Assembly: GCA_900537185.1 (NCBI GenBank)
Contig: LS999830.1
Location: 297,440-361,439, forward strand
Length of the DNA: 64,000 bases
Direction: 5' to 3'
Source of the DNA: Cytophagales bacterium Alg240-R148
GTDB taxonomy: Bacteria; Bacteroidota; Bacteroidia; Cytophagales; Cyclobacteriaceae
The position numbers were made by a program, and so were the translations under genes. Numbering within the stretch: position 1 is the stretch's first letter; the number at the start of each line of letters is the position of its first letter. Positions 1,930 to 47,182 of the stretch are shown here, piece by piece. The notes beneath the pieces were generated by a model. The model ran no database searches, was not told the DNA's origin, and worked only from the letters and a program-made list of their open reading frames with translations.

Positions 1930-2628
1930 ATGCACTTATTAATTGTTGAGGATGAAGCCAGAATAGCCAAAAGAATTGAACGCATGGCCCGCGCAATTGT
2001 TGGAGAAGGTATGCGATCTCTTGTACACAAAGACAACCTCCAAGATGCACTGCATTATATCAAAGAGAATACTTTGGACCTCGTGCTTTTGGATTTAAAT
2101 CTAAACGGAGACAACGGTTTTGATTTGCTCACCACCGCTGTTTCCGAATCTTTTCATACCATAGTTGTTTCGGCGTATAAAGAGCAGGCCATTACGGCTT
2201 ATGAATATGGGGTTTTGGACTTTGTACCCAAGCCCTTCAACCAAGAAAGGTTGCAACTTGCTTTTAGCAGAGTTGGATCCAAAGAAAAACTAGAACCCAG
2301 CAAAGTCAAACATTTGGCCATTAAAAAAAGAGGACGCATTCATCTGATACCCATTGAAAAAGTATTGTATGCCAAAGGTGCAGGGGTGTACACCGAGCTT
2401 TATTTGACCGATGGCATCAAAGAACTACACGATAAATCTCTGGAAAAACTGGAGCAACTGCTGGCCCATTCTTTTGAAAGAATACACAAGTCGTATCTAG
2501 TTAAAATGTCGGAGGTAAAACAAGTGATTGTAGAAACTGGAAGTAAATACAAGGCAGAACTTAACAATGGCGAAATTATTCCAGTAGGAAGAACCAAGTA
2601 CAAAGACATAAAGTCCAAGTGGTTATAG
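1930..2628 (+). CDS. LytTR-family response regulator
   Basis: 232 aa. A receiver domain covers residues 1-120, with acidic residues at 7-9 (EDE), phosphoacceptor Asp55 in LVLLDLNLNG and a conserved Lys in PKPF. A LytTR DNA-binding domain covers about 135-232 (RIHLIPIEKVLYAKG; RIHKSYLVKM; IIPVGRTKYK). It is almost certainly the partner of the kinase just upstream, since the genes are one base apart. The last 55 coding bases plus 12 bases after the stop form one arm of a perfect 67-bp direct repeat; the other arm lies 7.3 kb away. Confidence 0.92.
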   Translation: MHLLIVEDEARIAKRIERMARAIVGEGMRSLVHKDNLQDALHYIKENTLDLVLLDLNLNGDNGFDLLTTAVSESFHTIVVSAYKEQAITAYEYGVLDFVPKPFNQERLQLAFSRVGSKEKLEPSKVKHLAIKKRGRIHLIPIEKVLYAKGAGVYTELYLTDGIKELHDKSLEKLEQLLAHSFERIHKSYLVKMSEVKQVIVETGSKYKAELNNGEIIPVGRTKYKDIKSKWL

Positions 2629-2640
2629 GCCATTAATTAT
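2574..2640 (+). repeat. 67-bp direct repeat, copy A (3' end of LytTR gene)
   Basis: Read directly from the sequence. These 67 bases recur without a mismatch at 9908-9974. The copy covers the last 18 codons of the LytTR regulator, its stop codon and 12 untranslated bases. Identity stops abruptly at both edges (base 2573 A versus C; base 2641 A versus T). Confidence 0.97.
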
Positions 2641-2649
2641 AATTCGGGG

Positions 2650-3354
2650 TTATTCAATAATTTGTATTTTTTGAGTCTTTGATAGACTGGGGCAACCATT
2701 TTGAGTAACGGTTGCAGTAACCTCGACTTCGCCAACAACTCCAAGTGGAACTAATGTTATAGTTGATTGGGTGTTGTTGTAAATAATTCGTTCATCTATG
2801 CGAACCATTGTGTTATCATTTGTAGTAAACTCCACTTGAATTCCATCAGATACTGGCTTTCCGTTATTAGACAATATGATATTAGCTGTACTCCTATCAG
2901 CTTTAGCCAAAGACATTTCCTTTGTACTTAAATCAAAATACAATAGGTTAGGACAAACTTCTGTAAATTGAAATAATTTGGTTGAAACCATGTTGTTAAG
3001 GTTTGCACTTAATAGAACTTTATCGTTTGGTTTTGAGCTTGATACAAGAATGAAACTAAAAGACTTTCTATTGGGCACCACATTCAATGTTTTAGATCCT
3101 TTTGTAAACTCTGAAGCTGGAAATTCTAATAACCCACCTGCAGAGGTGCTTATTACAACTTGCTGATTATCAGATAATAATCTTTGAAATTGTAAAGTTA
3201 CTATTACCCAAGAAACCCCATCTGCCTGAATAGAACTTGCATTGTTTTCGAACAGAAATTCCGGTTTTTTGCTTTGAGTCGTATCGAAGAGGTCTTTGCA
3301 TGAGGTTACTATTAACAAAATTGCGAGTAGTATGTTGATTACAAAATTTTTCAT
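2650..3354 (-). CDS. lipoprotein with bacterial Ig-like (invasin/Big_1-like) repeats
   Basis: 234 aa from the ATG at 3354. A longer reading to 3396 is possible but would put 14 residues before the signal peptide and overlap the upstream gene. The signal ends in a lipobox-like IVTSC near residue 20. Two beta-rich segments follow: one begins with IQADGVSWVIVTL, the typical opening of Big_1 domains, and the second has KPVSDGIQVEFTTND. It probably sits in the outer membrane or periplasm as an adhesive or structural module. It starts 7 bases after the stop of the 901-aa gene, so the two are likely one operon. Confidence 0.75.
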   Translation of the reverse strand: MKNFVINILLAILLIVTSCKDLFDTTQSKKPEFLFENNASSIQADGVSWVIVTLQFQRLLSDNQQVVISTSAGGLLEFPASEFTKGSKTLNVVPNRKSFSFILVSSSKPNDKVLLSANLNNMVSTKLFQFTEVCPNLLYFDLSTKEMSLAKADRSTANIILSNNGKPVSDGIQVEFTTNDNTMVRIDERIIYNNTQSTITLVPLGVVGEVEVTATVTQNGCPSLSKTQKIQIIE

Positions 3355-3361
3355 TTTAATT

Positions 3362-6067
3362 CTAGTTAAGTTTTCCTTCTGCTTTGATTTTTCCAACTAT
3401 ATTGCTAAAACTGAACCCAATACCAATATAAAATGGGCTTTGTCCTTTCACATTAAAATTATAACCCCCTGTGAAAAACAGTTGATTTTGCCATAATCCT
3501 ATTATGGGCCCTGCTCCTATTTCAAACGTTTCTTTTATATCAAAATCAAGAAACGAAACATTGATACCAAAAGATGGCTCCACCCATCTTAAAAATTTCT
3601 TAATTTTCTTTCCTCGAAAATCATTGTGATAGGTCCATATCAACGAAATTCCTGCTGTTGGTTTAAAATTTGATGGAGACTTGTCTACAGTTACAAGGTC
3701 TTCGTTAATCCTTTGAATCAAGAGAACAGATTCAGGTGTGTTTATGTGCCAGCCTGTTTTTTTTATAAGAAACTTTGCTGTGCTTAGTTCTACTCCTTGT
3801 TCCGCATCAGTTGTGTTTTCTTCAAAATTATACCACATCACTTTTATCTCAAGAACATCTCCATCTTTAGCCAAAGCTTTTTCTAAGTCAATTGTGGCAA
3901 ACAACATGCCGCTAAATATTTTTAACCCAGCTCTTAAGGCCACATCGTTTTGTATTTCACGGTATGTACTGGGGTCTTCGAGTCCTTTATAAATAACTCT
4001 TGTGATCTCAACTGGTTTTTCAGGATCAATTTTCTCCATGCCGTCAATTTTCATTTTCATATCATCGGTCAAAACGGCGTTTATTGCATGACTTAATTGG
4101 AGTATGGCATCATTGAGTATTTTTGTTCTAAAATTTATATTAGTATAATTTTTACCAAATATAATTTTCAGGTCCATACCTTCTCTTTTTAATTCATTTA
4201 AATTAAATTTTATGGTTTCATATAAATTTTCGAATTCAATTCCAGAAACTAAAGAGAGGTTTAAAAAGGCATCCATTGATTGTTTGCCAGAACTTCTGAA
4301 ATAATTCATGTATTTCAAACACAATTCAATGTTTTTAATATACCGTCGGTAGCTAGTGGTATTGTCATTGGTTATCATAAATTTTGGAGAAACAATACTC
4401 GAATCATTCTCTTTATTATATTCTTTTAAATTATTGATTAGCCTTGTGATTTGACTAAAAGTTAATTTATCATTCATTAATTTATTAAGGTCAATTGTTG
4501 TGAGGTGATTTTCAGCTAATCTGTTGGTATATGGCCAGATTAATGATTTAGATATTTTTTGTATTTCGATTAATTTTATACTGTCTAAACCCTTTTTTCT
4601 TTTTTCAATTTTCTGCATCAACTCACGTTGATCCAGAAAAGAACTTTGCCCTCTTGTTATTATGTTTTTTAGATCTAGAATGGTGTTATTACTTGTTTTT
4701 ATCTGAAAGTTGTTAATAATATTGATCAGAATAAGACTGTCAATTGTAGTCGTCAATGGTATTAATGAGGCCAATTTTTCATGAAGTTCTTGATCTAAAA
4801 AATCAGCAGGTATTTTGCTAGTATCCTGTAGCATTGAAAATTCACTAATTTTATCAACTAACGTCCTAATCTGTCCGTTCAATCTTTTTACAACAATTTG
4901 TTTAGGTTTGGTAAGGTCTGTTTGTTCTTTCTCTACAAAAAGTCCTTTTATTTTATTGTAATCATTCATCACTTTGTTTCCTTCAATCATTAGATTTAGA
5001 AAGTTATTGGCAATTTCTTTAATGGGTTTACTATTAACTCCGTAAGATTTTTTATCCTTTCCAATCAAGGTATAAGGGTTTACTTCTATGAGTTGGTCGT
5101 TGATGGTTGCAGCCAATGAAATATTCCCATAAAAATCTATATTTCTTGCGAGCATTTCATGGTCAAAACGAATTTCTAATGTAGTCTTTGTGTCCACTAC
5201 TTTTTGTTCCTGTACAGGGTAAAATTTTCTAATAAAACCAGGTTCAAATTGAGTGTCGAATGGAAATTTAGATTGTACGAGTTCATCTTGTTTATTCTTC
5301 AACCACCATATGGGTACAGAAGACTGATTTGCTTGCTGCTTTTCATAAATTGTAACATATTGCCTCGGTTCAATTTTTGCAGTTTTCTCTGCAACCCATG
5401 GGTTGTTAGAAGGCAACCCAATTGACCTTAAATAAATAATTTGGTTATTTTCTTTGCCTAGGAATTTAAGGCCGATTCCTTTTTCCATAAAAAGCAGGGG
5501 ACATATTTTATCTTTTAGTCTGTGTTCCCACTGCTCATCTTTATAGTCAGAAACGTTGTTATGAGCTTTCTTTAAAACATCAATTAACCTAACAAAAATT
5601 GCTCCATCAGTTTTGTTATTACCTATTAATGATTTTAATGCTATTTGATGGTTTTTACCATCAAAATTCAATGGAGATTCAATTTCCACATAATCATATT
5701 CTGACAATTGAAGGAATATACCTATATTAAACAGGCTGGGACAATCAATCACAGATTCGATTTCTCCATTCTCATTAATAAACATAGGAATTCGGCTTGT
5801 CATGTATTTTTGTCTTATAGTTGAAATTCCATTTGAGTTTTTAAACCATTCAGCAACTGGCCCTTTATTGTTAGGTTTAAAGTATAAAAAATGAATGTTT
5901 ATTTTTGAGGTTAAGGGCACTGTTTTTTGTATTTCAAGTTCGGTTTGAACGCCTTCTATATGGCCCAAATTCTTTAAAGGAATTGTATCATAATTGCTTT
6001 TTTTGTCTCCGGCTTGACACAAAACACATATTACAAGACAAAAGAAAAGAAATATTGAAGTTTTCAT
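3362..6067 (-). CDS. large exported protein of unknown function
   Basis: 901 aa. The signal peptide is about 20 residues (MKTSIFLFFCLVICVLCQAG). I do not recognise the protein. The middle (about 330-650) is rich in Lys, Asn and Ile, appears helical and has several heptad-like stretches. The last 80 or so residues alternate short aromatic/hydrophobic strands (FGINVSFLDF; GAGPIIGLWQ; FFTGGYNFNV; IGIGFSFSNI), like the final strands of an outer-membrane protein, although too few for a full barrel. The Ig-like lipoprotein gene follows at once. Plausibly the pair forms a cell-surface assembly, which is inference. Confidence 0.7.
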   Translation of the reverse strand: MKTSIFLFFCLVICVLCQAGDKKSNYDTIPLKNLGHIEGVQTELEIQKTVPLTSKINIHFLYFKPNNKGPVAEWFKNSNGISTIRQKYMTSRIPMFINENGEIESVIDCPSLFNIGIFLQLSEYDYVEIESPLNFDGKNHQIALKSLIGNNKTDGAIFVRLIDVLKKAHNNVSDYKDEQWEHRLKDKICPLLFMEKGIGLKFLGKENNQIIYLRSIGLPSNNPWVAEKTAKIEPRQYVTIYEKQQANQSSVPIWWLKNKQDELVQSKFPFDTQFEPGFIRKFYPVQEQKVVDTKTTLEIRFDHEMLARNIDFYGNISLAATINDQLIEVNPYTLIGKDKKSYGVNSKPIKEIANNFLNLMIEGNKVMNDYNKIKGLFVEKEQTDLTKPKQIVVKRLNGQIRTLVDKISEFSMLQDTSKIPADFLDQELHEKLASLIPLTTTIDSLILINIINNFQIKTSNNTILDLKNIITRGQSSFLDQRELMQKIEKRKKGLDSIKLIEIQKISKSLIWPYTNRLAENHLTTIDLNKLMNDKLTFSQITRLINNLKEYNKENDSSIVSPKFMITNDNTTSYRRYIKNIELCLKYMNYFRSSGKQSMDAFLNLSLVSGIEFENLYETIKFNLNELKREGMDLKIIFGKNYTNINFRTKILNDAILQLSHAINAVLTDDMKMKIDGMEKIDPEKPVEITRVIYKGLEDPSTYREIQNDVALRAGLKIFSGMLFATIDLEKALAKDGDVLEIKVMWYNFEENTTDAEQGVELSTAKFLIKKTGWHINTPESVLLIQRINEDLVTVDKSPSNFKPTAGISLIWTYHNDFRGKKIKKFLRWVEPSFGINVSFLDFDIKETFEIGAGPIIGLWQNQLFFTGGYNFNVKGQSPFYIGIGFSFSNIVGKIKAEGKLN

Positions 6068-6228
6068 GACAAGTATATTTAATATGAAGTTTCAGGTGTT
6101 TTCCTGATAACATTTCAAATATCCGAATCATAACTTTCTAAAAACATGGGGGTTATCCCATTTAGGGGTGGGTATTTTATGAAAATAAAAAGGGGTGAAT
6201 AAAGGGCAATACTTTGTGAAAAAGTAAA

Positions 6229-6891
6229 CTATAGGAGGTTAAAAAGTTGGTGCTTTAGAATAAAAAGTACCAAACCAGTTTTCGACTTAATAGAAAATTT
6301 TTCAAAAATTGACTCACGATAGCCGTCTACTGTGCGGTGTTGAACATTCATAATTCCCGCTATCTGTTCATATGTGTATTCATCTTCATGACATACAAGT
6401 TTCAAAAATTCTCTTTCTCTTAACGAAAGTTGGTCCAAGACTATTTCTTGTTCAGATTGTTTTTTGGGTTTAGACTCATTGCGCAATGAATATGTTAAGA
6501 ATTCATTGTGATAATAACCACAACGAAATATTTCATCTAGGGCTTCCTTCATAGTATTGGCTGTACAATTTTTCAGTAAATATCCTCTTGCCCCTAAACG
6601 AAATAATTTTAACATCCGCTCGTCGTCAGAATTTAAAGTAAGAATTAATACTGGCACTTCGCAACCTGCATCATTTAATTTACCCAAAGCTTCATCTCCG
6701 TCCATTATTGGCATAGTAAGGTCCATAATAATCAAATCTGGTTTGGTATTAAATGGCCAACTATTTACTAAATTGGCGCCATTATCAAACTGTTCCTTTA
6801 TTTGATACGGACCTATTTTTTCTATTAACGCCTTTAAACCATCTCTAACTACAACATGGTCATCAACCAGAATAATGTGTTTCTTTTCCAT
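6229..6891 (-). CDS. NarL/LuxR-type response regulator
   Basis: 220 aa from the ATG at 6891, which opens with the canonical KKHIILVDDH. A longer reading to 6966 would run inside the kinase gene. The receiver has Asp10/Asp11 and phosphoacceptor Asp57 (IIMDLTMP). The C-terminal LuxR helix-turn-helix reads LSLREREFLKLVC...YEQIAGIMNVQHRTVDGYRE. The start codon lies one base after the TGA of the kinase gene, so translation is probably coupled. It is the output half of a two-component pair that seems to belong to the block between the 67-bp repeats. Confidence 0.93.
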   Translation of the reverse strand: MEKKHIILVDDHVVVRDGLKALIEKIGPYQIKEQFDNGANLVNSWPFNTKPDLIIMDLTMPIMDGDEALGKLNDAGCEVPVLILTLNSDDERMLKLFRLGARGYLLKNCTANTMKEALDEIFRCGYYHNEFLTYSLRNESKPKKQSEQEIVLDQLSLREREFLKLVCHEDEYTYEQIAGIMNVQHRTVDGYRESIFEKFSIKSKTGLVLFILKHQLFNLL

Positions 6892-6892
6892 A

Positions 6893-7678
6893 TCAATTAT
6901 TAGATTCGTTGGTTTTTTTTGTAATTGTAATACTACTACCATCCCCCAATATTGATGTGATTTCACATTTCATCCCAATCAATTCAGTTCTTTTAAGTAT
7001 GTTTTGCAAACCAGATGCTTGAGCACTATTTAATATTTTTGTTGTTTCAAACCCTTTTCCGTCGTCTTCAAAAACAAGTTGGAAATTTGGTTCTGCACTG
7101 CAAGATATTTTTAACTTTGAAGCATTCGAATGCCGAAGAGCATTGGAAATTATTTCTTGGCTTATTCTAAACAAAATTAGTTCATTATTGGTGTCAACAA
7201 GGAGCCGATCTTGCTGCCTGACCCATTGTATTTCTAATTTTCTTAATCGCTTTAAACGTTCTACTTCTAGATCCATGGCAGCATAAAAGTCTAATTTTTC
7301 AAGGAAATCAGAATTCAGAGTCCTACTGAGTAATCTTAGCTGGTCTGATGTTTCCTGTAGGTACTGATCTATTGATGTTATGTGACCAATTAATTCTGGA
7401 TGATCTAATTTTTTATTTTCAATTTCTAGCCGCATACAAGTTAATAAATGTCCAACATTATCGTGAAGCTCTTGTGCAATATGCCGCTTTACTCCTTCAC
7501 TTAGCTCACTTTCTACTTTTCTCAATTCTTGTTCGTAATTTAAGTTGGCTTGTGTCAAAATAATCTCTTGTTTGGACCGCTGTTGCCCCACCATAAAAAA
7601 TGATATAATAACTCCTATAATTAAAATGAAAATGAGCAGGGTGGTAAGAATAATTGACAATACAATTTCATTTCCCAT
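6893..7678 (-). CDS. NarX/DesK-type sensor histidine kinase (HisKA_3)
   Basis: 261 aa. A single N-terminal membrane segment (about 5-29) is followed by a coiled coil, a HisKA_3 phosphoacceptor ELHDNVGHLL with His72, and an ATPase domain with N-box ISNALRHSNA and G1-box FEDDGKGFE. There is no periplasmic sensor domain, so input probably comes through the polytopic membrane protein encoded just upstream, whose gene overlaps this one by 11 bases. The partner is the downstream NarL-type regulator. Confidence 0.92.
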   Translation of the reverse strand: MGNEIVLSIILTTLLIFILIIGVIISFFMVGQQRSKQEIILTQANLNYEQELRKVESELSEGVKRHIAQELHDNVGHLLTCMRLEIENKKLDHPELIGHITSIDQYLQETSDQLRLLSRTLNSDFLEKLDFYAAMDLEVERLKRLRKLEIQWVRQQDRLLVDTNNELILFRISQEIISNALRHSNASKLKISCSAEPNFQLVFEDDGKGFETTKILNSAQASGLQNILKRTELIGMKCEITSILGDGSSITITKKTNESNN

Positions 7679-8354
7679 TATGTAAGGAGTTCAGTGATGT
7701 TTTTTGTTTTGAATATTTCCAGAAGCCAATTGCAACCATCAAATATCTCACATTTGTGAACAAGCCTGTAATTAACCTATATAAAAACTTGTTGACCTCT
7801 GGTGAGTTGGTCTGTAATGAGTTGAAAAATGCGATGTATGGAGTGATACAAGCAAAATAGAGTATGGTTCCTAGGCATATCCAAAACTCTGGCAAAATTG
7901 CCTGATTTCTCCTCTTCTCCACAATGATTAGGTACAAAATAATAATATAAGCAGTTACTATTGTTATGCCACCTATTAAGTAGGAATAACTTGCGAATTC
8001 AAAAAAACTGGCTGAAGATGTCTCATAGATAAATGAGAAAATACAACATGCAAATGCCAATACAATCAAATTCGTAATTCTTTTATTATTTGCATAAACA
8101 ACCGCTGCCCATAAAAGAATAAATAACTCTAAGGGCATATAAACATTATAAACCCATAGATTTTTCTTAACTAAGAATATGGGGTATATATCTTGACTTG
8201 CTTTAATTATATGGGATTCTACGTAGATGATTAAGTAAACCAACAACTGAAACAAATGAAGCAGATAAAACTTGCTAAAATACCTCGAAAAATATAGCCC
8301 AACACAACAGGCTATTAAAAATACGAATATTTCAATAAAAACATTAAAAAACAT
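7668..8354 (-). CDS. polytopic membrane protein, likely sensor subunit for the adjacent kinase
   Basis: 228 aa with about seven hydrophobic segments over nearly its whole length and almost no soluble domain. It overlaps the kinase start by 11 bases, making a three-gene unit with kinase and regulator. It resembles the protein encoded at 17635-18291 in length, topology and motifs: YNVYMPLE here and YNIYTPIE there, and a later FWICLGTILYFAC against FYWYLSGIICYAS. I do not recognise a named family. A membrane sensing role is inferred from the operon. Confidence 0.8.
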   Translation of the reverse strand: MFFNVFIEIFVFLIACCVGLYFSRYFSKFYLLHLFQLLVYLIIYVESHIIKASQDIYPIFLVKKNLWVYNVYMPLELFILLWAAVVYANNKRITNLIVLAFACCIFSFIYETSSASFFEFASYSYLIGGITIVTAYIIILYLIIVEKRRNQAILPEFWICLGTILYFACITPYIAFFNSLQTNSPEVNKFLYRLITGLFTNVRYLMVAIGFWKYSKQKTSLNSLHNGK

Positions 8355-8438
8355 ATTAAACTAGTAAATAACAGCGTCAATAAATATAAGAAATTTCATA
8401 TACAATTTGAATTTATTTACTAGTTTATATAGTGTATA

Positions 8439-9335
8439 CTATTTTGCTTTTTTGAATTTCACATCCTCGCCATCACAACTTGGGGGACACATGTTACCTA
8501 AGTTGGCAACATCTCCAGGTTCAATAGAATGGAGAAATTCATTGGTTTCCTTGTTTCCATTCGTATAATTAAACATTACAGTATGCCTATTTTTCAGTTT
8601 GACTAGACGGGTTGAGCCCTTTACTTGTAAAGATCCTACATCATAAACAATATCGTTCACTTCCTCTTTAAATTTGCATTCTTTTTCTAATTTTTTGTCG
8701 TTATAATTAACATGAAAAAGACAGAAAAACTCTTGAAATGGTATAATAATGCCTTTGATGTCCAGTTTGTCTGGATTGTATTTTCTAAGGTTTACGAACC
8801 AATTTCTAATTCTTATATGAACTTGGTATCGCAGTATTTTGTTTTGTGCTTGTGTATTGTCTATAGTGGTAAAATCTGTACCTCCGTTGTACAATAAAAA
8901 GTGGTCTGAATTTAATATTTGAACTTTTCCTTTTAAATATTCACCTTCGGTTTTTAGAATTTTTGTGAACCCAGTCTGCAACAAAATTTCAGATTTATTG
9001 TCTTTGTTTAATCCCATGTAAAACATTATAAATGTGACATATTTATCATTATGTCCAACCAAGTTTTGAACCATGGAATCAGTGCTTTTATGCAAGTCCC
9101 TAATACAGCTCATCTTTATCTTGTCAATTACATAATTGATTTTTTCTTTATTTGATAACTTGATTTTTTTGTAAAACCTTTTGTTGACTTTTTGCGCTTC
9201 TTCTTTACTTTTAAAAACAGCCTTCATGTTTAATTCTGGTTCGTTTTCAAAACGCTTAAGTTGAGCTTTACCCTTTTCAATTGAAAAACAAATGAATACA
9301 ATTAGAACGAGCATTAGTTTTTTTACGTTGTTCAT
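8439..9335 (-). CDS. exported protein of unknown function
   Basis: 298 aa from the ATG at 9335, which starts a clean signal peptide (MNNVKKLMLVLIVFICFS... ending near KGKAQ at about residue 25). The frame stays open to 9434, but the extra residues would bury the signal. The mature part is Lys/Asn rich with mixed helix and strand. It has two Cys near the C-terminus (MCPPSC) that could pair. I see no known domain. It is the last minus-strand gene in the repeat-bracketed block and lies 84 bases upstream of the membrane protein/kinase/regulator operon. Confidence 0.65.
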   Translation of the reverse strand: MNNVKKLMLVLIVFICFSIEKGKAQLKRFENEPELNMKAVFKSKEEAQKVNKRFYKKIKLSNKEKINYVIDKIKMSCIRDLHKSTDSMVQNLVGHNDKYVTFIMFYMGLNKDNKSEILLQTGFTKILKTEGEYLKGKVQILNSDHFLLYNGGTDFTTIDNTQAQNKILRYQVHIRIRNWFVNLRKYNPDKLDIKGIIIPFQEFFCLFHVNYNDKKLEKECKFKEEVNDIVYDVGSLQVKGSTRLVKLKNRHTVMFNYTNGNKETNEFLHSIEPGDVANLGNMCPPSCDGEDVKFKKAK

Positions 9336-26009: not shown

Positions 26010-28634
26010 TTATTCAGCCTGCAAACCTTTAACCGGATTGGATTGAAATACTTTTTTAACTTGGGTAGCCACAACCAGTAATAGCACTACAACCAACACA
26101 ACCAATGCCATCAAAATACCAGAATAATCCAAAGGCATGGGATAGGCAAAAAGCATGTCCAGGTAAGCTTTTGAAACGATATAGCTCATTGGGCCTCCAA
26201 CTAACAAAGCTATGGTGGTTAACCACACATATTCTTTCAATATATTGGAGGACAAATGTTGTAACCCTGCTCCCAGTGTTTTGCGAATACTAAATTCTTT
26301 TGTCCTTCCTGAAACGTTCAACGAAACCAAACCATATAAGCCCATACCAGCTAAAAATACTGCAACAACAGCAATAATTGCATTGAAGTCTTTGGCTTTT
26401 TGAATCATTTCAAAAAAGACTCCCCATGTTTCTGTCTGATGTCCTCCATAAAACGGCAATTCTGGGTTTTGTTTCAGCCATTCTTTCTTCAACAAAGACA
26501 AGGCCTTTTGTTCGCTGCCCTTTTCAGTTCGTAGGACAATATAGTCAAACTTTGTTTCCTCGGTCAGTTGCATTACCATAGGTTCGATTGTATTAAAAAA
26601 GTTGTGAAAATGAAAATCTTTCACCACTCCAATTACCTCGTATTTCACATTTTGGATGGTCAACAATGCGCCAATTGGATTTTTGAGTTGTAGGTTTTCA
26701 ACCGCTTTTTCATTGAGCACCAACGCCTGTTTGTCACTTTCTTTTTTATCAATAAAAGAACGGCCCGCTACCAATTCAAAATTTAGCGTTTCTATGTAAT
26801 TGGGGCCTACCGACATACTCGAAACCTCGTATTGAATTGAATTATGGCTCAACACCAATGCATCAAGTGTTAACCCTACATGCTCTTTTGCCCCTACCAC
26901 AGTTTGGATACTTGGGTGTTTTTCCAATGCAATTTTTAAGTTTTCGAACGACTTCGTTTTTTGCAGTGCACTGTACAATAATTGATCTGGTTGATATCCC
27001 CATTGTTTTTGAGATTGATAGGCGTTGTTTTGGGCAACTACAATCCCAACCGCAATGGTGGTACAGGCCAGCACCAATTGTACGCCTAAAAATGCTTTGG
27101 TTACTAAGTTGTTTTTACCGAATTTTTGGGCCCCTCTAAAAATTGAAACCGTGTCAAATTTAGAGATGTAAAAGGCTGGATATATACCGGACAACAATCC
27201 GGTGGCTAACAATATGCTTGTTATAAACAACCAAAAGTCTGAAGACATAGTGTTTAATTCTAAATCCCATCCAGTGAAACCAATAAACCATGGTAAAAAT
27301 AAAAATATACCCATTCCTACACCCAAGAGCATCGCAAAAGAGGTAGTGACCATATTCTCCAGTAAAAACTGAACAATAACCTGTCTTTTATTAGCGCCAA
27401 TAACCTTGCGTACTCCAATCTCTTTTAAACGTTTGGATGCCGTTACAATGGCTATATTGATATAGTTTAAGCAAGCCAATGCCAACATTAACAATGCTAT
27501 TACTGGCAGCCCTATTCTACCCTCTAAATTGTCATCATAAGAAATGTCATTTTTTATTCTTCCTGAAACCTTATGCAAATCTGCTAATTTTTCAAATTCA
27601 AATGAATGGATGGACCAATCTGGCTGTGCCTTATTTTGTGCCATCCTATACCCTTCCATAGACTGTTTTATTTGAGGTATTTGATTTATGTCGTCTACTT
27701 GAATAAGTGTAGCACTAACAAAAGCACCCCAATCGTCATCTGAAAACTCTGGTAATGCCGTTTTTAGATTTTCGTAATGCACTAAAAAATCAAATGCAAT
27801 GGCATGGGCTTTTGGGAAGGGAGCAGCCACTCCTACCACAGTAAATTCCTTTTTGTTATTCTCCCCAAAAATTACTGTAACCAGTTCTCCAATAGGGTTG
27901 TTTTCCCCAAAATATTTGATACCCATGGCATGGCTTAAAACAATGCTATTGAGATCTTCTAGACCTTTTTTATTTCCCTTGGCCATTGGAAAAGTAAAGA
28001 AGTCTAAAAAATTTGGATCTACGTAGCGCAACTGTTCATTAAAAACCACATCTCGAAACTTAATTATCACTGGTCCGTCGTCTACCCTACAAACTTGTTT
28101 CACTTGTGGCATGTCTTGGGCCATTAAGGCGCCTAGTGGCCTTGGTGTTCGTCCGTTTTGTTCTAAGTCACCATCTCTGTTAATATAGGTGGTAGCCAAA
28201 TAAACTTCCTCTTTTTTAGTATGAAATTGGTCAATGCTGTTGTCCCAAGCTAAAAAAACATAAACCAACAAACAGATACCAATGGCAACTGCCAACCCAA
28301 AAACATTGATGAAGGAGGTCAATGGGTTTTTGAATAAGGAACGCGTTGAAGTTTTGAAATAATTTTTAAGCATTACCCAATGGAGAATGCTCCGCAACGA
28401 AGTTTTGGGTTTTACATTCCACAACTCTTCTTTGGCCACAGGTTCAATACTACCAAATTCCTCTACTGCCTGTTCGAAAGCTATTTTTTCTGATACGCCC
28501 TCTGCAACCAATTCTTCCATATGGTCCCGAAGATGAAGCTCCATTTCTCTTATGCTCCCATCGTCGTAAAAAGGATGTTTTCTAAACTGTTTCAACCACG
28601 CCTTGATGGCTTTATCTGAATTAAAGTCGGTCAT
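26010..28634 (-). CDS. FtsX/MacB-type ABC permease with N-terminal prefix domain
   Basis: 874 aa. Residues 1-75 form a soluble helical permease-prefix domain (IREMELHLRDHMEELVAEGV). Two FtsX-type halves follow, each with a MacB-like periplasmic domain. The first half has TM helices near 110-135 and 375-490, the second near 515-540 and 755-860. The motif ASKRLKEIGVRKVIGANKRQ marks the coupling helix of the first half and GRTKEFSIRKTLGAGLQHL that of the second. It should act with a LolD/MacB-type ATPase, but none is encoded in the window. Its start overlaps the stop of the PadR gene by one base, so the PadR protein likely controls it. Confidence 0.92.
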   Translation of the reverse strand: MTDFNSDKAIKAWLKQFRKHPFYDDGSIREMELHLRDHMEELVAEGVSEKIAFEQAVEEFGSIEPVAKEELWNVKPKTSLRSILHWVMLKNYFKTSTRSLFKNPLTSFINVFGLAVAIGICLLVYVFLAWDNSIDQFHTKKEEVYLATTYINRDGDLEQNGRTPRPLGALMAQDMPQVKQVCRVDDGPVIIKFRDVVFNEQLRYVDPNFLDFFTFPMAKGNKKGLEDLNSIVLSHAMGIKYFGENNPIGELVTVIFGENNKKEFTVVGVAAPFPKAHAIAFDFLVHYENLKTALPEFSDDDWGAFVSATLIQVDDINQIPQIKQSMEGYRMAQNKAQPDWSIHSFEFEKLADLHKVSGRIKNDISYDDNLEGRIGLPVIALLMLALACLNYINIAIVTASKRLKEIGVRKVIGANKRQVIVQFLLENMVTTSFAMLLGVGMGIFLFLPWFIGFTGWDLELNTMSSDFWLFITSILLATGLLSGIYPAFYISKFDTVSIFRGAQKFGKNNLVTKAFLGVQLVLACTTIAVGIVVAQNNAYQSQKQWGYQPDQLLYSALQKTKSFENLKIALEKHPSIQTVVGAKEHVGLTLDALVLSHNSIQYEVSSMSVGPNYIETLNFELVAGRSFIDKKESDKQALVLNEKAVENLQLKNPIGALLTIQNVKYEVIGVVKDFHFHNFFNTIEPMVMQLTEETKFDYIVLRTEKGSEQKALSLLKKEWLKQNPELPFYGGHQTETWGVFFEMIQKAKDFNAIIAVVAVFLAGMGLYGLVSLNVSGRTKEFSIRKTLGAGLQHLSSNILKEYVWLTTIALLVGGPMSYIVSKAYLDMLFAYPMPLDYSGILMALVVLVVVLLLVVATQVKKVFQSNPVKGLQAE

Positions 28635-28972
28635 TATTGTATCTCCGTTTTAGGTTCCCATATTTGATTTAGAACAGAATTAACTTGTGCCCACTGGCTT
28701 TGTTCCTGATGCAACGCCTCTTTGCCCAATGTTGTAATTTCATAGTATTTTCTGGGCCTTGTTTCATTTTTCAAACTCCAAGAAGACTCTATCCAACCGT
28801 CTTTTTCCATTTTGTGCAGCACCGGATACAGCATTCCATCCGAGTATTGCATCTTTCCTCCAGACAATTCTTTGATTTTCTTAATGATTAAATAGCCATA
28901 ACTACTCCCCTGTTTAAGAATACCCAATATTATGGGTTTGGTGGAAGCGGCTGTTAAAGTTTTTGATATCAT
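28634..28972 (-). CDS. PadR-family transcriptional regulator
   Basis: 112 aa, a single winged helix typical of the short PadR subfamily: ILGILKQGSSYGYLIIKKIKELSGGKM, then DGMLYPVLHKMEKDGWIESSW and RPRKYYEITTLGKEAL. It likely represses its own operon with the downstream permease. An 18-bp palindrome lies 23 bases upstream of its start. The inducing ligand is unknown. Confidence 0.95.
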   Translation of the reverse strand: MISKTLTAASTKPIILGILKQGSSYGYLIIKKIKELSGGKMQYSDGMLYPVLHKMEKDGWIESSWSLKNETRPRKYYEITTLGKEALHQEQSQWAQVNSVLNQIWEPKTEIQ

Positions 28973-29359: not shown

Positions 29360-31948
29360 TTATTCCGTTCTTAAGCCTTCTACTACATTGGATTTATTGG
29401 TCTTTCTTACCTGAGACAGAACAGTTGCTACTAGTACTACAACAAGCAACAAAACAGCAAAAAGGACGCTATAAAGACTCATTGGAACGTGGTAGGTATA
29501 AACCGAATTAAAGAAAAAGTCTATCAGGAAATAACTTAATGGACCTCCAACTCCTAGAGCTAGAACAAACAAAACGACATATTGCCTAACAATATTATTG
29601 GCCAAATTACTCGATTTTGCTCCCAACAATTTCCGAATGCTGAATTCCTTTACCCTACCCGATACATTCAGCGTGATTAGACCATACAATCCTAGACCAG
29701 CCAACACCACAGCAATCATAGCAATCACATTCCAAAAAACAGCATGATTGCCTATCTCTTCAAAATAATTGCCCCAAACACCATCTTGGTGCCCACCCTG
29801 AAAAGGAATTTCTGGATATAATGTGGCCCATTGGGTTTGTAAATTCCTATATACCTCCATTTCTTTTCCACCTGTCACTTTTAAACTGAGATGCAATACT
29901 TCATGGTCTTGAGCCAGTCGAAAAATGGTTGGCTCTATGTTGCTAAAAAAACTATACATATGAAAATCTTCTACTACCCCAACTATTTGGTAGTCCATGC
30001 TGTCTATTTTATAAACTGCACCTATTGGATTGCCCACCTTGGTGTTTTCTACAAACTTTCTATTTACAACTATACTATTCCGATCTGCAGTAGAGTTTTC
30101 AATAAAAAAACGCCCTTCCATCAATTTCAAATCCAGCACCTCTTTATAAGCCGCATTGGCCTTAATTTCATTTACCTCGTACACCTTTGTGCCTTTTTTA
30201 ACGATGGCGTTGCCATGATTTTTACCAATGTGCTGCACAGAACCGGCAATGGAACCTACATTTGGATTGGAAGACATCGCTGCTTTCATCTGTTCATATG
30301 CATGCTGGTTGTGTACTTTTATGTACAATGCTCCATTGGGTTGGTACCCCCAACTTCTATTGATCAAATAATTGCTGTTTAATGTGAACATGACAGCGCA
30401 TACAATAGTAATGCACGAAAGCACCAATTGAAAACCCAAAATCACTTTGGTTATCATATTGTTTTTTCCAAATCTTATTTGCCCTTTGAATATGGATACG
30501 ATATGAAATCTAGAGATATAAAAAGCTGGGTAAAGACCCGATGCCAAACCAGTAAACAACAACACTGCCCCTAAAAATAAAAATAAGTTGGGGTCTAAAA
30601 TGTTAAACCCCATTTTAAAATGATTCAATTGTTCAAAACCGGGGATAAACACCTGGGAGCCTAATAAAAACCCTATTAACAGCGCTATGGATGTAACCAG
30701 CATATTTTCAGTCAAAAATTGCACAACAACCAACTGTTTGTTGGCACCAATTGCCTTTCTAACGGCTATTTCCTTTAATCTTTTGGCTGCTGTAACAATG
30801 GCAATGTTGATGTAATTGAAACAAGCTAGGGCCAACATAAAACAAGCAATTATGCTTAAAATAATGGTGGATTTGTGATTGGACTCGTAGCCACCGTAGG
30901 TTATGTGGTTTCTAATCTGGCCCGCATTTTCATATAGTGTTTCGATCGATTCAAAATCAAATGCACTAATCGCCCAGTCTTTGTCTGCCTTGTTTTGAAA
31001 GTCCATATATTTGTCCATCCCTTCTTTTATAGCCAAGACTTCTTTAGGGTCATTTACTTCAATTAAAGTGGCCTTAATAAATTGCGCCCAATCGTTCAAA
31101 TTCAATTCTGGGCGTGCCAATTTAATATTTTCAAAGTTGATAAGACAATCAAACTCGATGGCAGAAGCATCTGGGAATTTTTCAACTACTCCAGTAACTT
31201 TAAATGCTTTGCCTTCTTTTTCATCAAACTTTATTAAAACTTCTTCCCCCATTGGATTCTCATGTCCAAAGTATTTTATGGCCATTTCTTGGCTTAAAAT
31301 AATGCTATTGGGGTCACGGAGAGACCCTGGATTGCCAATGACCAAAGGGAAGGTAAACATGTCTAAGAATGAAGGGTCTACGAGCCGCACTTGCTCGTGG
31401 AATACATTATCTTCAAATTTAACCACAACGGATTTATCCTCTAATCGGCAAACTCTTTTGATTTGATCGAAGTCGGACTGTATGGCTTCCCCTAAAGGCG
31501 CTGGTGCCATTCCAAATTTTTGATCTGCACCATCTCTATTGGCCACAAACGTGCTTAGAAAAACGACCTTTTTATTGGTATGGTGCTGGTCTATGGTTTT
31601 GTACCATTTGCCGAAGCCATAGACCAAAACGCAAATCCCTATGGCCATGGAAAGGCCAAAAAGGTTGATAAATGAGCTCAATGGATTTTTCATTAAGCTT
31701 CGATATGAAGTTTTATAGTAGTTGTTGAACATAATTATTGTTGAGTTATTTTGAGTGTTTTTCCAGGCGTATGGTTGAAAACAACGCAGTACATCCCAAA
31801 CATAAAGCCATTTGGCTTTGTTGGGGCCATAGTGCTCCAAATTGTCATAAAACAATTCTTGAAGATCTCCTTCAAGTTCCTCGTACCTATTTTTTTTGCA
31901 GTACAATTTAAAAAATCGTTGCGCTGCTTTTGGAGGTTTTTGTTCCAT
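29360..31948 (-). CDS. FtsX/MacB-type ABC permease with type 2 prefix domain
   Basis: 862 aa from the ATG at 31948. A TTG two codons upstream abuts the PadR stop and is less likely. Residues 1-65 are a prefix domain of the other type (PKAAQRFFKLYCKKNRYEEL; ELFYDNLEHYGPNKAKWLYV). Two FtsX-type halves follow, with coupling-helix motifs AAKRLKEIAVRKAIGANKQL and GRVKEFSIRKLLGAKSSNL. It is closely related to the permease at 26.0-28.6 kb, with many shared stretches such as ALACFNYINIAIVTA, but the prefix domain differs. No ATPase is nearby. It is cotranscribed with the PadR gene. Confidence 0.92.
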   Translation of the reverse strand: MEQKPPKAAQRFFKLYCKKNRYEELEGDLQELFYDNLEHYGPNKAKWLYVWDVLRCFQPYAWKNTQNNSTIIMFNNYYKTSYRSLMKNPLSSFINLFGLSMAIGICVLVYGFGKWYKTIDQHHTNKKVVFLSTFVANRDGADQKFGMAPAPLGEAIQSDFDQIKRVCRLEDKSVVVKFEDNVFHEQVRLVDPSFLDMFTFPLVIGNPGSLRDPNSIILSQEMAIKYFGHENPMGEEVLIKFDEKEGKAFKVTGVVEKFPDASAIEFDCLINFENIKLARPELNLNDWAQFIKATLIEVNDPKEVLAIKEGMDKYMDFQNKADKDWAISAFDFESIETLYENAGQIRNHITYGGYESNHKSTIILSIIACFMLALACFNYINIAIVTAAKRLKEIAVRKAIGANKQLVVVQFLTENMLVTSIALLIGFLLGSQVFIPGFEQLNHFKMGFNILDPNLFLFLGAVLLFTGLASGLYPAFYISRFHIVSIFKGQIRFGKNNMITKVILGFQLVLSCITIVCAVMFTLNSNYLINRSWGYQPNGALYIKVHNQHAYEQMKAAMSSNPNVGSIAGSVQHIGKNHGNAIVKKGTKVYEVNEIKANAAYKEVLDLKLMEGRFFIENSTADRNSIVVNRKFVENTKVGNPIGAVYKIDSMDYQIVGVVEDFHMYSFFSNIEPTIFRLAQDHEVLHLSLKVTGGKEMEVYRNLQTQWATLYPEIPFQGGHQDGVWGNYFEEIGNHAVFWNVIAMIAVVLAGLGLYGLITLNVSGRVKEFSIRKLLGAKSSNLANNIVRQYVVLFVLALGVGGPLSYFLIDFFFNSVYTYHVPMSLYSVLFAVLLLVVVLVATVLSQVRKTNKSNVVEGLRTE

Positions 31949-31954
31949 CGTCAA

Positions 31955-32293
31955 TTATATAAAATCCCATTTAAACGCCAGGTCTGGTATTTTGTTTCTT
32001 AGAGAATTGCGCAATTCTATAGATTCGTCTAGTGTTTTTTTACCTATGGGGGTGATATTGAACAACCGCTTGCGCTTGCCTCCCCTTTTGGATTCTGGAT
32101 CTCCCATTCTAGATTTAAGCATGCCCTTGTTTTCCAATCGATAAAGTGATTTGTGGACTGCACTTACATTGACTGCCCTTCCGGATTGTTCTGAAATTTC
32201 CTTTGTAATGGCTACTGCATAGGCATCGTCATACAATACACCAACCGTTAAAAGTACTAGTTCTTCGAATTCTCCTATGTTGTCCCTACTCAT
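31955..32293 (-). CDS. PadR-family transcriptional regulator
   Basis: 112 aa. The winged helix reads EFEELVLLTVGVLYDDAYAVAI, then HKSLYRLENKGMLKSRMGDP and RKRLFNITPIGKKTLDES. It has the same length as the other PadR protein here but clearly diverged sequence. Its stop is 6 bases before the ATG of the permease it probably represses. Two near-identical 17-base repeats exactly 40 bases apart lie upstream of its start. Confidence 0.94.
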   Translation of the reverse strand: MSRDNIGEFEELVLLTVGVLYDDAYAVAITKEISEQSGRAVNVSAVHKSLYRLENKGMLKSRMGDPESKRGGKRKRLFNITPIGKKTLDESIELRNSLRNKIPDLAFKWDFI

Positions 32294-43629: not shown

Positions 43630-43669
43630 TTCTTTGGATGGTTGTTAAATTATTCGCTATTTTCACACA

Positions 43670-46600
43670 ATGGAAAGTTGGATGGGTTTGCCGTGGGCAC
43701 TGATGTTGTATACTGGTGTTATTGCGCTTAGCGCGATGGTGTTATTGCCGTCGTTCAAAAGCAAATACCCCCTTTTCAGATGGTTTGGTGCTTACTTTTT
43801 ATGCAATGTCTTGGCATACCCTGTGCTTATTGGGTTGGATAGTCCTGTTGCTGGTTTTCTTTTGACTGTTTTAGCTGCGCTACTATTGTTTAGAATAAGC
43901 AGTACTTACATTTCACAAAAAACAAGATTACCATGGACCTCCTATCTACCTGGAGCCCTTGTTTTATTGCTCTTAGCAGCAAGTACTACTTTTCTTGAAA
44001 ATTCTCCTTTGTTGCAATGGTTTGCTGCTAGTGCTTGTACCTTATATTACACAGTTAAAGGCTGGCTTAATTTACTGGGGGAAGCTAAAGAAAGAGGCAT
44101 TCAATGGCGAAGCCCAGGCAAAAAACTGCAATGGTTTAGAATATTCTATGCGCTTGCGTTGGGCCAACAGGGCTTGTTGTTGGTCTACTACTTTATCCCT
44201 TCTCCACTTTATTTTTTAATGATGGAGGTCCTGATTCTGTGGTTCACGGTACATGAAATAGTCCAAAGCTCCGACTTTTTCTTGCCTCGAACGTCCGTTG
44301 TAAAATATAAAAAGTCTTCTTTAACACCAGAGATAAAAATAGACCTTTTAATGAAACTAGATATTTTATTAAAAGAAAAGAAAGTTTATAAAAAGGAAAG
44401 CCTAACCCTGCAAGAAGTTGCTAAAATGGTAGCAACTACCAGCCACCACTTGTCTCAAGTAATCAATGAAAACAAAGGAGTTGGCTTTCAGAAGTTGTTG
44501 TCCAAATACAGAATAAACGAGGCCAAAGAAATATTAAGTCAAGAAAAAAACAATGCATTAAAAATCGAGCACGTTGCAACGGATGTTGGATATAATTCAA
44601 AATCTGCGTTTAATGCCGCCTTTAAAAAACATACAGGCCAAACTCCTTCCGAATTTAGAGAGCAAACAGTAGTGCGATCTTATAAGATCACACAACTAGC
44701 CGATAAACCAGAACCATCGCACTACAAAATAACACCACCTTCAGGAAATGTTATACACAAAAAACAATTTCTGACTATGTTATTTAATTTTTTCACCGTC
44801 TTCAAAAGGATCCTCCTAAAGCACAAAGTAGTGGCCCTTATAAATATTGTTGGGATTACAGTTGGCCTTAGCTGTATTTTATTGATGGCACCCTATGTTG
44901 CCGATCAACTGGGTTACGACACAGAACTACCTCAATCTGAGCAATTGTACAGAATCACCTATTACGATGGGAGTAACTTCCAGTCTACAACATCCCATTT
45001 GCTCAGTTACGCCGTTGCCGAGCAATTTGACAATGTTACAGCAGCCACCAGTATTTCTCCTTTATCAGGAAAGGGACAATTGGCCCAAAACCATGTGCTA
45101 GCCAATTCTACAAAAAGCATTCAAAATAAAGAATCCGGTATTTTGATGGTCGATTCTACCTTTTTAGATGTATTCCAATTGGATGTAATTGCTGGGGATC
45201 CAAAAGCTTTGTACAGCCCTTGGAACTTGGTAATCACAGAAACCATGGCAAACAAATATTTCCCAGATACCACAGCCATTGGTCAAGAAATGTTAATGGA
45301 CGAGATGCCAATTCCAATAGCAGCCGTAGTGGCGGATATGCCGAGAAAATCCCACTTCCATTTTAACGCTTTGTTTTCTTATGTTACAATAAAAACCATT
45401 GGGCCTGACAACCCGATTTTTAATTGGGACAGCTTTGAACATTATAATTACCTCAAAATTAAGGGCGATGCTACCAATATAAAAACAGGTCTAAAAGACT
45501 TAATTTACCCACATTTAAAATGGAGTTCAGAAGATTTAGCTTCTCTACAGTCTGGAAATAAGTATTTTGATTTACAGCCTATATCGGACATCCACCTCTA
45601 TTCCAACGCTGCTGATGAGTTAGAAGAGAACAGCAGCATCCACCATTTATATATGGTTGTTTCAATCCTGTTGCTTTTGTTAGTTACCGTTGGGGTCAAT
45701 TATATCAACCTATCTGCTGCCATGGCATCGGATAGATCAAAAGAAACTGGAGTGCGTAGAACTTTTGGTGCGAGTCCATTCAGTATTTTCACCCAGCATT
45801 ATTTAGAAACCACGCTCTATTGTTTGTTGTCCTTTCTTTTGGCTTATGGGTTGGTTTTGACTTTGTACCCGATTTTCAATGAAGTGATGGCTTTTAATTA
45901 TGGACCAAAAGATTTTATAAGTGCAACGGTAGTAGGTACTGGATTTCTATTGGTGGTGGTGCTAAGCATAACATCCAGCGCTTTTCCATTTATTGTTCAG
46001 TTCAACAACAGCGAAAGCATTCATTTTGACCTCAAAAATAATACGGTTCTTATTTACCGCAACTTCCTGATTGTAGCACAATTTGGCATATCCATATTAT
46101 TACTTGTAGGTGCTTTTGGTATTTACGAACAAATTAACTTTGTTAAAAACAAGCCATTGGGGTACGAAAAAAATGGGATCTTGTCTTTCGATATACCCAA
46201 GAGTGTTGAGTTTGGAGGAATAGAAATTGCCAAACTAGAACAGCTTCATTTGTTATTTAAACAGAATATGCCTGGAACAACCACTGCCACAACCTCTTCT
46301 TTACCAGGCGGAACCATTGAATACTCCATTGTTTCTAACCCTGCCAAAGATTGGAAGCAAGTGGAAACCGAGCACCTTTTTATCGATAGCAGCTTTTTGC
46401 AAACCATGAACATTGCAATGGTCAATGCCCATCGATTGGGATTACAACAGACCACTAATGATGTGGTTTACATCAACCAGTATTTAGCCAATTTGATTGG
46501 TAAGGAGGCACTCCATTCTACTATTAATATTAACTTCATGGGCCGTGATTATACCAAGACTATTGTTGGAGTAGTTGCAGATTTTCATTTTCATTCTTTG

Positions 46601-47182
46601 CATAGGCCCATTGGACCTATGGTTTTAGAATTAAAACCAGCTATGATCAACAAATTTGTGGTTCGATTGAACAGTTCCAACCTGCACGACCAATTGGTTC
46701 TAGTAGAAAGTATGTACAAAAAAGTATACCCCAACATGGACTTTGAATATACATTTTTAGACCAGCATTTGGCCTATCAATATGCTTCAGAACAAAGAAC
46801 TTTTAAAATTTTAACCATTTTAAGCATTGTAACCTTGCTCTTGTCCAGTTTGGGCTTATTTGCCAACGCCATGTCTATTCTAAGAGAAAAAACCAAAGAA
46901 TTGGGTGTTCGGAAAATATTAGGAGCCAGTCAATGGTCCATTATCCAACTGGTTTTATTTCGGTTCTTAAAATTAATCGGACTCTCTTTGTTGTTGTTTT
47001 TGCCTCTGGGATATTGGTTAACCAAAGATTGGTTAAGCTATTATAGCTACCAAGCTCCCCTATCCATTACCACCTATTTATTGGCCGCATTAATAGTTGT
47101 TCTAGTCGCACTATTGTCCATCGCTCATGTAGTTGTAAAAAGCGGAAGGTCCAATCCTATACAAGCCTTAAAATCAGAATAA
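43670..47182 (+). CDS. fusion: membrane AraC-type regulator joined to FtsX/MacB-type permease
   Basis: 1170 aa in one uninterrupted frame. Residues 1-210 carry about seven membrane helices. Residues 240-333 are a complete AraC domain (LTLQEVAKMVATTSHHLSQV; HVATDVGYNSKSAFNAAFKK; GQTPSEFRE). After a short linker, residues 370-1170 are an entire two-half permease (MLFNFFTVFKRILLKHKVVA; coupling helices ASDRSKETGVRRTFGASPFS and EKTKELGVRKILGASQWS) with MacB-like periplasmic domains. Met370 (ATG at 44777) could allow separate initiation of the permease. Alternatively this is a recent loss of the stop between two adjacent genes. No ATPase is nearby. Confidence 0.88.
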   Translation: MESWMGLPWALMLYTGVIALSAMVLLPSFKSKYPLFRWFGAYFLCNVLAYPVLIGLDSPVAGFLLTVLAALLLFRISSTYISQKTRLPWTSYLPGALVLLLLAASTTFLENSPLLQWFAASACTLYYTVKGWLNLLGEAKERGIQWRSPGKKLQWFRIFYALALGQQGLLLVYYFIPSPLYFLMMEVLILWFTVHEIVQSSDFFLPRTSVVKYKKSSLTPEIKIDLLMKLDILLKEKKVYKKESLTLQEVAKMVATTSHHLSQVINENKGVGFQKLLSKYRINEAKEILSQEKNNALKIEHVATDVGYNSKSAFNAAFKKHTGQTPSEFREQTVVRSYKITQLADKPEPSHYKITPPSGNVIHKKQFLTMLFNFFTVFKRILLKHKVVALINIVGITVGLSCILLMAPYVADQLGYDTELPQSEQLYRITYYDGSNFQSTTSHLLSYAVAEQFDNVTAATSISPLSGKGQLAQNHVLANSTKSIQNKESGILMVDSTFLDVFQLDVIAGDPKALYSPWNLVITETMANKYFPDTTAIGQEMLMDEMPIPIAAVVADMPRKSHFHFNALFSYVTIKTIGPDNPIFNWDSFEHYNYLKIKGDATNIKTGLKDLIYPHLKWSSEDLASLQSGNKYFDLQPISDIHLYSNAADELEENSSIHHLYMVVSILLLLLVTVGVNYINLSAAMASDRSKETGVRRTFGASPFSIFTQHYLETTLYCLLSFLLAYGLVLTLYPIFNEVMAFNYGPKDFISATVVGTGFLLVVVLSITSSAFPFIVQFNNSESIHFDLKNNTVLIYRNFLIVAQFGISILLLVGAFGIYEQINFVKNKPLGYEKNGILSFDIPKSVEFGGIEIAKLEQLHLLFKQNMPGTTTATTSSLPGGTIEYSIVSNPAKDWKQVETEHLFIDSSFLQTMNIAMVNAHRLGLQQTTNDVVYINQYLANLIGKEALHSTININFMGRDYTKTIVGVVADFHFHSLHRPIGPMVLELKPAMINKFVVRLNSSNLHDQLVLVESMYKKVYPNMDFEYTFLDQHLAYQYASEQRTFKILTILSIVTLLLSSLGLFANAMSILREKTKELGVRKILGASQWSIIQLVLFRFLKLIGLSLLLFLPLGYWLTKDWLSYYSYQAPLSITTYLLAALIVVLVALLSIAHVVVKSGRSNPIQALKSE

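Follow-up and report, generated by a model that had tools for sequence, protein, structure and literature searches.

In the window, a stretch of 64,000 nucleotides from Cytophagales bacterium Alg240-R148, one gene encodes both a membrane AraC regulator and a complete permease of the MacB/FtsX type. The gene occupies positions 43670..47182 of the forward strand, and in the open reading frame list and the translation it is a single uninterrupted frame of 1170 codons. The joining of the two proteins in one frame had been noticed in a sequence-only reading and is borne out by the ORF, the Pfam matches and the fold. By sequence comparison, the fusion, its conservation in relatives, the preserved start codon of the permease and selection on the bases before that codon are established. 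The best explanation, to which we give about an even chance, is a self-regulating orphan ABC permease in which a portable module, made up of a seven-helix membrane sensor, an AraC DNA-binding domain and a fixed-length linker, is fused in frame at the start codon of a permease with the YbbP/BceB fold. The architecture is a conserved, expanded and modular combination of known parts. A published description of an AraC-FtsX/MacB chain was not found in the open-access literature. In bacteria, the regulator linked to a transporter is often a separate protein; here a single, widely kept chain contains both, and the transporter may carry its own gene switch.

All features of the gene lie on the forward strand. 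The N-terminal part contains seven predicted membrane helices (residues 9–199; 43694..44266), which appear in AlphaFold2 models of both the whole chain and the module alone. The AraC-type DNA-binding domain follows (residues 220–334; 44327..44671). It has the two helix-turn-helix (HTH) motifs of the AraC/XylS family, with an HTH_18 match at residues 251–332 (E 2.6e-18). The linker (residues 335–369; 44672..44776) is predicted to be disordered, with pLDDT below 50 at residues 334–362. The remainder of the chain is a complete, duplicated permease (residues 370–1170; 44777..47179) with a MacB_PCD match at residues 390–577 (E 9.9e-14) and FtsX matches in two stretches (1.5e-18). Each of these Pfam matches is above its curated cut-off.

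The permease shows the features of a Type VII (MacB/FtsX-fold) permease, namely FtsX, periplasmic core domains and conserved coupling-helix motifs. The first motif, SDRSKETGVRRTFGAS (residues 687–702; 45728..45775), has invariant R689, E692, G694 and G700; by analogy with YbbP, from which the role is taken, it is the expected ATPase contact. The second motif, REKTKELGVRKILGAS (residues 1072–1087; 46883..46930), has invariant R1081, K1082, G1085 and A1086. The permease resembles ADOP-like orphan permeases in being duplicated and in having no adjoining ATPase gene, and its match to the ADOP subfamily model TIGR03434 (170.7 bits) does not reach the curated cut-off of 622.3 bits. Permease prefix domains 1 and 2 (NF038403/404) are absent from the fused protein among the 25 families listed. 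Rfam gives no match at 42–49 kb of the window.

The AlphaFold2 model of the whole chain, built on 21 relatives, has a mean pLDDT of 77 and a pTM of 0.55. The regulator module modelled alone (pLDDT 81, most blocks 77–93) resembles its counterpart in the whole-chain model. Eight long helices span the membrane in the permease part of the model, which also has two periplasmic domains. In a structure search, its best match is YbbP (9ge6, Z 24.2); BceB (8s5g, Z 21.7), LolE and MacB are also among the matches. The best match of the HTH part is the C-terminal domain of AraT (6swi, Z 15.6, with an rmsd of 2.4 across 111 residues). For the membrane part, the similarity is to a GPCR-like 7TM bundle at Z 13–15, a range in which helical bundles match by chance. 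The predicted topology, in which seven helices lead to a cytoplasmic HTH and then to a permease with a cytoplasmic N-terminus, allows a tethered regulator.

The same unbroken chain, with the same domain order and length, is present in at least 24 of 295 family genomes from 11 genera. This count is a lower bound because two candidates per genome were scored, and one family copy (G241) is truncated where its contig ends. Across an alignment of 21 family members, identity to the window protein is 27–37%, and the HTH keeps approximately 20 invariant residues. In g87, a Spirosoma-like genus, the module is present in 6 of 36 genomes, in a single copy per genome; five of these copies are intact fusions, and the sixth (G537) is degenerate. 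This genus is taken as Spirosoma from its approximately 80% DNA identity to a named Spirosoma plasmid. A related fusion on a Spirosoma plasmid has a broken frame. In a class-wide sample, the fusion is also present in a more distant genus, g103, where it occurs in 76 of 149 genomes. Several g103 genomes contain at least 13 copies, 13 being the number scored. Some copies lie in tandem, and fused and plain permeases also occur together in mixed arrays. Among the g103 fusions at L233, L234 and L238, some adjoin genes for a TonB-dependent receptor, FecR or a phosphodiesterase and others do not. A contig search gave one HTH-only relative, from Flammeovirga. A 1184-residue frame in G804 and frames of 1000–1008 residues in L177 and L179 are not AraC fusions.

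The window's own genome contains approximately 43 related permeases, and in a whole-genome search this one alone is fused. Both halves of the fused protein sit on a branch several times longer than those of their relatives. An accidental fusion or a sequencing error in one genome would be compatible with the single copy and the long branch, but it is extremely improbable given the number of family and g103 genomes with fusions and the invariant HTH residues. The conserved, unbroken full-length relatives in 11 genera rule out a sequencing error or lost stop, and the situation raised in the sequence-only reading, of one exception among relatives with two separate genes, is not what the genomes contain. 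A second permease of the same genome (L002) is also long-branched, and the lineage may evolve fast.

Within the window, the regulator had been likened to the membrane AraC gene at 39.2–40.2 kb. In the whole-genome search this likeness extends to the DNA-binding half (residues 208–332, 29% identity) but not to the membrane part, which is unaligned. The permease had been likened to three permeases at 26–38 kb. These share its fold but are only distant paralogues (23–25% identity), and two of the three bear a different N-terminal domain, the prefix of PadR-tied permeases. The prefix domain is found in the permeases at 26.0–28.6 and 29.4–32.0 kb. The intervals 26010–28972 and 29360–32293 each contain a PadR gene paired with a prefix permease. 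Elsewhere in the same genome (C1; L162, 2518–6074), an unfused membrane AraC gene precedes a permease gene by 71 bp, both on the same strand.

An ATPase gene (ABC_tran) is absent from the window, and approximately a dozen ATPases of LolD/MacB size are encoded elsewhere in the genome. The next gene has a HisKA match that is below the cut-off. A partner histidine kinase and response regulator, as in a BceAB-type module, are absent; the regulator within the chain is of the AraC type. The genes beside the fusion differ from genus to genus, and no conserved target gene adjoins it.

In the phylogenetic trees, the fused permeases of the window's clade form one group (support 98/95), as do their AraC parts (100/100). 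On this phylogenetic evidence, the window's clade arose from one fusion. The Spirosoma AraC modules form a separate group, and a single origin of the window's and the Spirosoma modules is rejected (p 0.0045). In four Spirosoma-like fusions, the AraC parts are 81–88% identical and the permeases 38–42% identical, and a tree that keeps these permeases together is rejected (p 1e-54). The DNA shared by the Spirosoma-like fusions covers up to approximately 330 bp of upstream sequence, the AraC part and the linker, and is found at unrelated loci. Two adjacent genes in G1597 (L232, G1597:C1:404000-420000; 2128–5577 and 5715–9191) encode regulators that are 99% identical and permeases that are 36% identical. 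In this tandem pair, DNA identity is close to 100% between approximately -80 and +1062, the position of the permease Met codon, and drops abruptly beyond it. The opposite pattern is seen in other pairs, whose permeases are 82% and AraC parts 52% identical. By these sequence comparisons, the halves have been swapped as modules in g103 and the Spirosoma-like genomes, with the start codon of the permease itself as the joint. The swapped halves are natural chimaeras that can show which of the two determines the signal.

In the window's clade, the two halves diverge together (correlation 0.76). The HTH and the permease are 132 residues apart in the window protein, and most of the 26 distant g103 fusions have this spacing. 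It is possible, at a little short of even confidence, that a Bacteroidota cassette consisting of promoter-proximal DNA, the seven-helix AraC sensor, the linker and the internal start signal has been spliced exactly onto the start codons of different ABC permeases. Each would have become a self-regulated gene with two products, and the transporters would have diversified by half-swapping.

The codon at the joint, Met370 (ATG; 44777..44779), is by sequence comparison the old start of the permease. It had been raised as a possible second start, and its invariance, its context score and a synonymous A excess before it favour a probable working internal start. Met370 is invariant in all 21 family and all 26 g103 fusions. 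Between V335 and F374, in the linker region, it is the only residue that is invariant in the 21 family members. None of the other Met residues of the permease is invariant, and they are shared in 26% of pairwise comparisons. Conservation of Met370 is insufficient by itself as proof of an internal start because a Met is likewise retained where the permease part begins in PadR-linked prefix permeases (28 of 31); the synonymous bias carries the case.

An A-rich putative translation-start signal lies 5' of Met370 (44753..44776). The frequency of A is 0.65–0.96 at positions -16 to -12 and 0.65 at -6 and -3. Initiation in Bacteroidota does not rely on a Shine-Dalgarno sequence, and adenines at -3, -6 and approximately -11 to -14 are favourable (Baez 2019, PMC6847099). 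With a start-context score trained on the starts of other genes at the same loci, Met370 scores 2.3 and the real starts of unfused permeases 2.2; the 525 other internal Met codons score -3.1, and Met370 of the window protein exceeds all of them. The excess of A at third bases has its whole-gene peak at residues 362–368 (z 6.6, and z 5.6 in a thinned set of 14 members with less than 60% identity; the z values are inflated because the sequences are related). Lys codons near Met370 are AAA in 26 of 26 cases, versus 65% elsewhere. This bias toward A at synonymous sites argues for selection on the DNA rather than on the protein. The g103 fusions also have an A excess before the permease Met (z 4.2), and the six Spirosoma-like fusions show no clear signal (z 1.0).

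The PadR-linked prefix permeases have an A excess as well (z 4.7). Since they share both the Met and the A excess, the start signal is not special to the fusion, and permeases with an added N-terminal part may in general have dual starts. The retention of the signal in prefix permeases would also fit a relic of the ancestral permease start that is now out of use. This reading is unlikely: the clade is only 27–37% identical to the window protein, yet the Met is universal and the synonymous sites before it are biased toward A. The start signals make two protein products from the one gene probable. Translation of one mRNA would yield the full regulator-permease when it begins at the first ATG and a permease without the regulator when it begins at Met370, and the internal start suggests a simple route to tethered and free transporter from one message.

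In the preferred reading, of a self-regulating orphan permease, the DNA-binding domain would stay at the inner face of the membrane and control a nearby promoter, most likely its own. The fused gene itself is the most likely constant target because the neighbouring genes are unconserved, and self-regulation is regarded as moderately likely. The signal would be either a ligand recognised by the seven helices or the operating state of the attached permease, and the cell would thereby make more transporter on demand; transport state as the signal is rather doubtful. The ATPase would be supplied from elsewhere in the genome.

The sequence-only reading had suggested that a DNA-binding domain tethered to a transporter would couple transport state to transcription, as in BceAB-type flux sensing. 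The permanent tether of the DNA-binding domain to a whole permease holds up, since the order of domains is conserved and the predicted topology is compatible with it. By analogy, flux sensing is plausible because the permease shares the fold of YbbP and BceB and a cytoplasmic location is predicted for the DNA-binding domain. The idea is complicated by Met370, which may yield much regulator-free permease. In its full form, in which ATP-driven permease movement would act directly on the AraC domain, flux sensing would agree with the fold, with the tether and with BceAB, in which signalling to the partner kinase BceS tracks transporter activity and is proportional to transport (PMC7038271). This full form is unlikely. 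The model defines no contact between regulator and permease (pTM 0.55; linker pLDDT below 50), free permease is probably made as well, and the free swapping of modules in g103 and the Spirosoma-like genomes disfavours a finely tuned coupling between the halves. Direct control of transcription by transport state would, in such a chain, be testable with a single gene.

The seven-helix AraC part may instead act on its own as a one-component receptor that responds to an outside ligand. Its fusion to the permease would then give only co-expression and co-localisation, and the state of the permease would be irrelevant to transcription. The regulator need not be tuned to one transporter, because the same module is found on very different permeases in other lineages, some as little as 36% alike. 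The predicted disorder of the linker and the unfused membrane AraC genes that are common across the order, including the one 71 bp upstream of a permease gene, also point this way. Mere co-expression would already be given by an operon, however, and both the nearly constant linker length across distant lineages and the joint divergence of the halves in the window's clade are odd under it. The independent receptor is a serious but minority possibility, and self-regulation by the fused chain remains the preferred reading.

Several known systems resemble parts of this arrangement. BceAB-BceS/BceR shares the permease fold and a transporter that is physically tied to gene regulation. It differs in having a separate histidine kinase and response regulator, whereas here the AraC domain is in the same chain and there is no kinase. 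BceAB also has one periplasmic domain, and the fused permease has two, without an ATPase gene alongside. The comparison with BceAB is apt as an analogy in the way of working and not as membership. E. coli YbbAP, a Type VII ABC transporter, likewise has a duplicated single-chain permease with two periplasmic domains. However, YbbP has ten helices including a linking pair (PMC12646458), versus eight in the model of the fused permease, and it works with YbbA and TesA and has no regulator.

The PadR-linked prefix permeases (NF038403/NF038404) are alike in that a duplicated permease carries an extra N-terminal part linked to a regulator, as well as in the signals at the permease start. Their regulator is a separate PadR gene, and their prefix is short and lacks a DNA-binding domain. 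One-component regulators of the CadC/ToxR type and unfused membrane AraC proteins also have a membrane-tethered DNA-binding domain. CadC reads a transporter, LysP (PMC5936718), but the two are separate proteins, unlike the single chain found here.

In the upstream regions of the window's clade, no common operator is found in the form of shared dyads, repeats or 11-mers. A TATTTTC box lies just 5' of the first ATG (43658..43664), and comparison within the subclade marks it as a possible promoter element that may give a leaderless message. Of 10 subclade genes, 7 have the pattern TA(N1-2)TTT no more than 24 nt from the start, versus 20 of 171 other genes. An inverted repeat, TGTCC(A/G)-N4-TGGACAAGAT, is present in L167, L168, L170 and L171 with one copy per genome and is a candidate operator, in the form TGTCCA-N4-TGGACA for the Spirosoma-like module. 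It lies approximately 160–190 bp upstream of the AraC start in L167 and farther upstream in L171. The repeat is retained even next to a module that is only approximately 41% identical.
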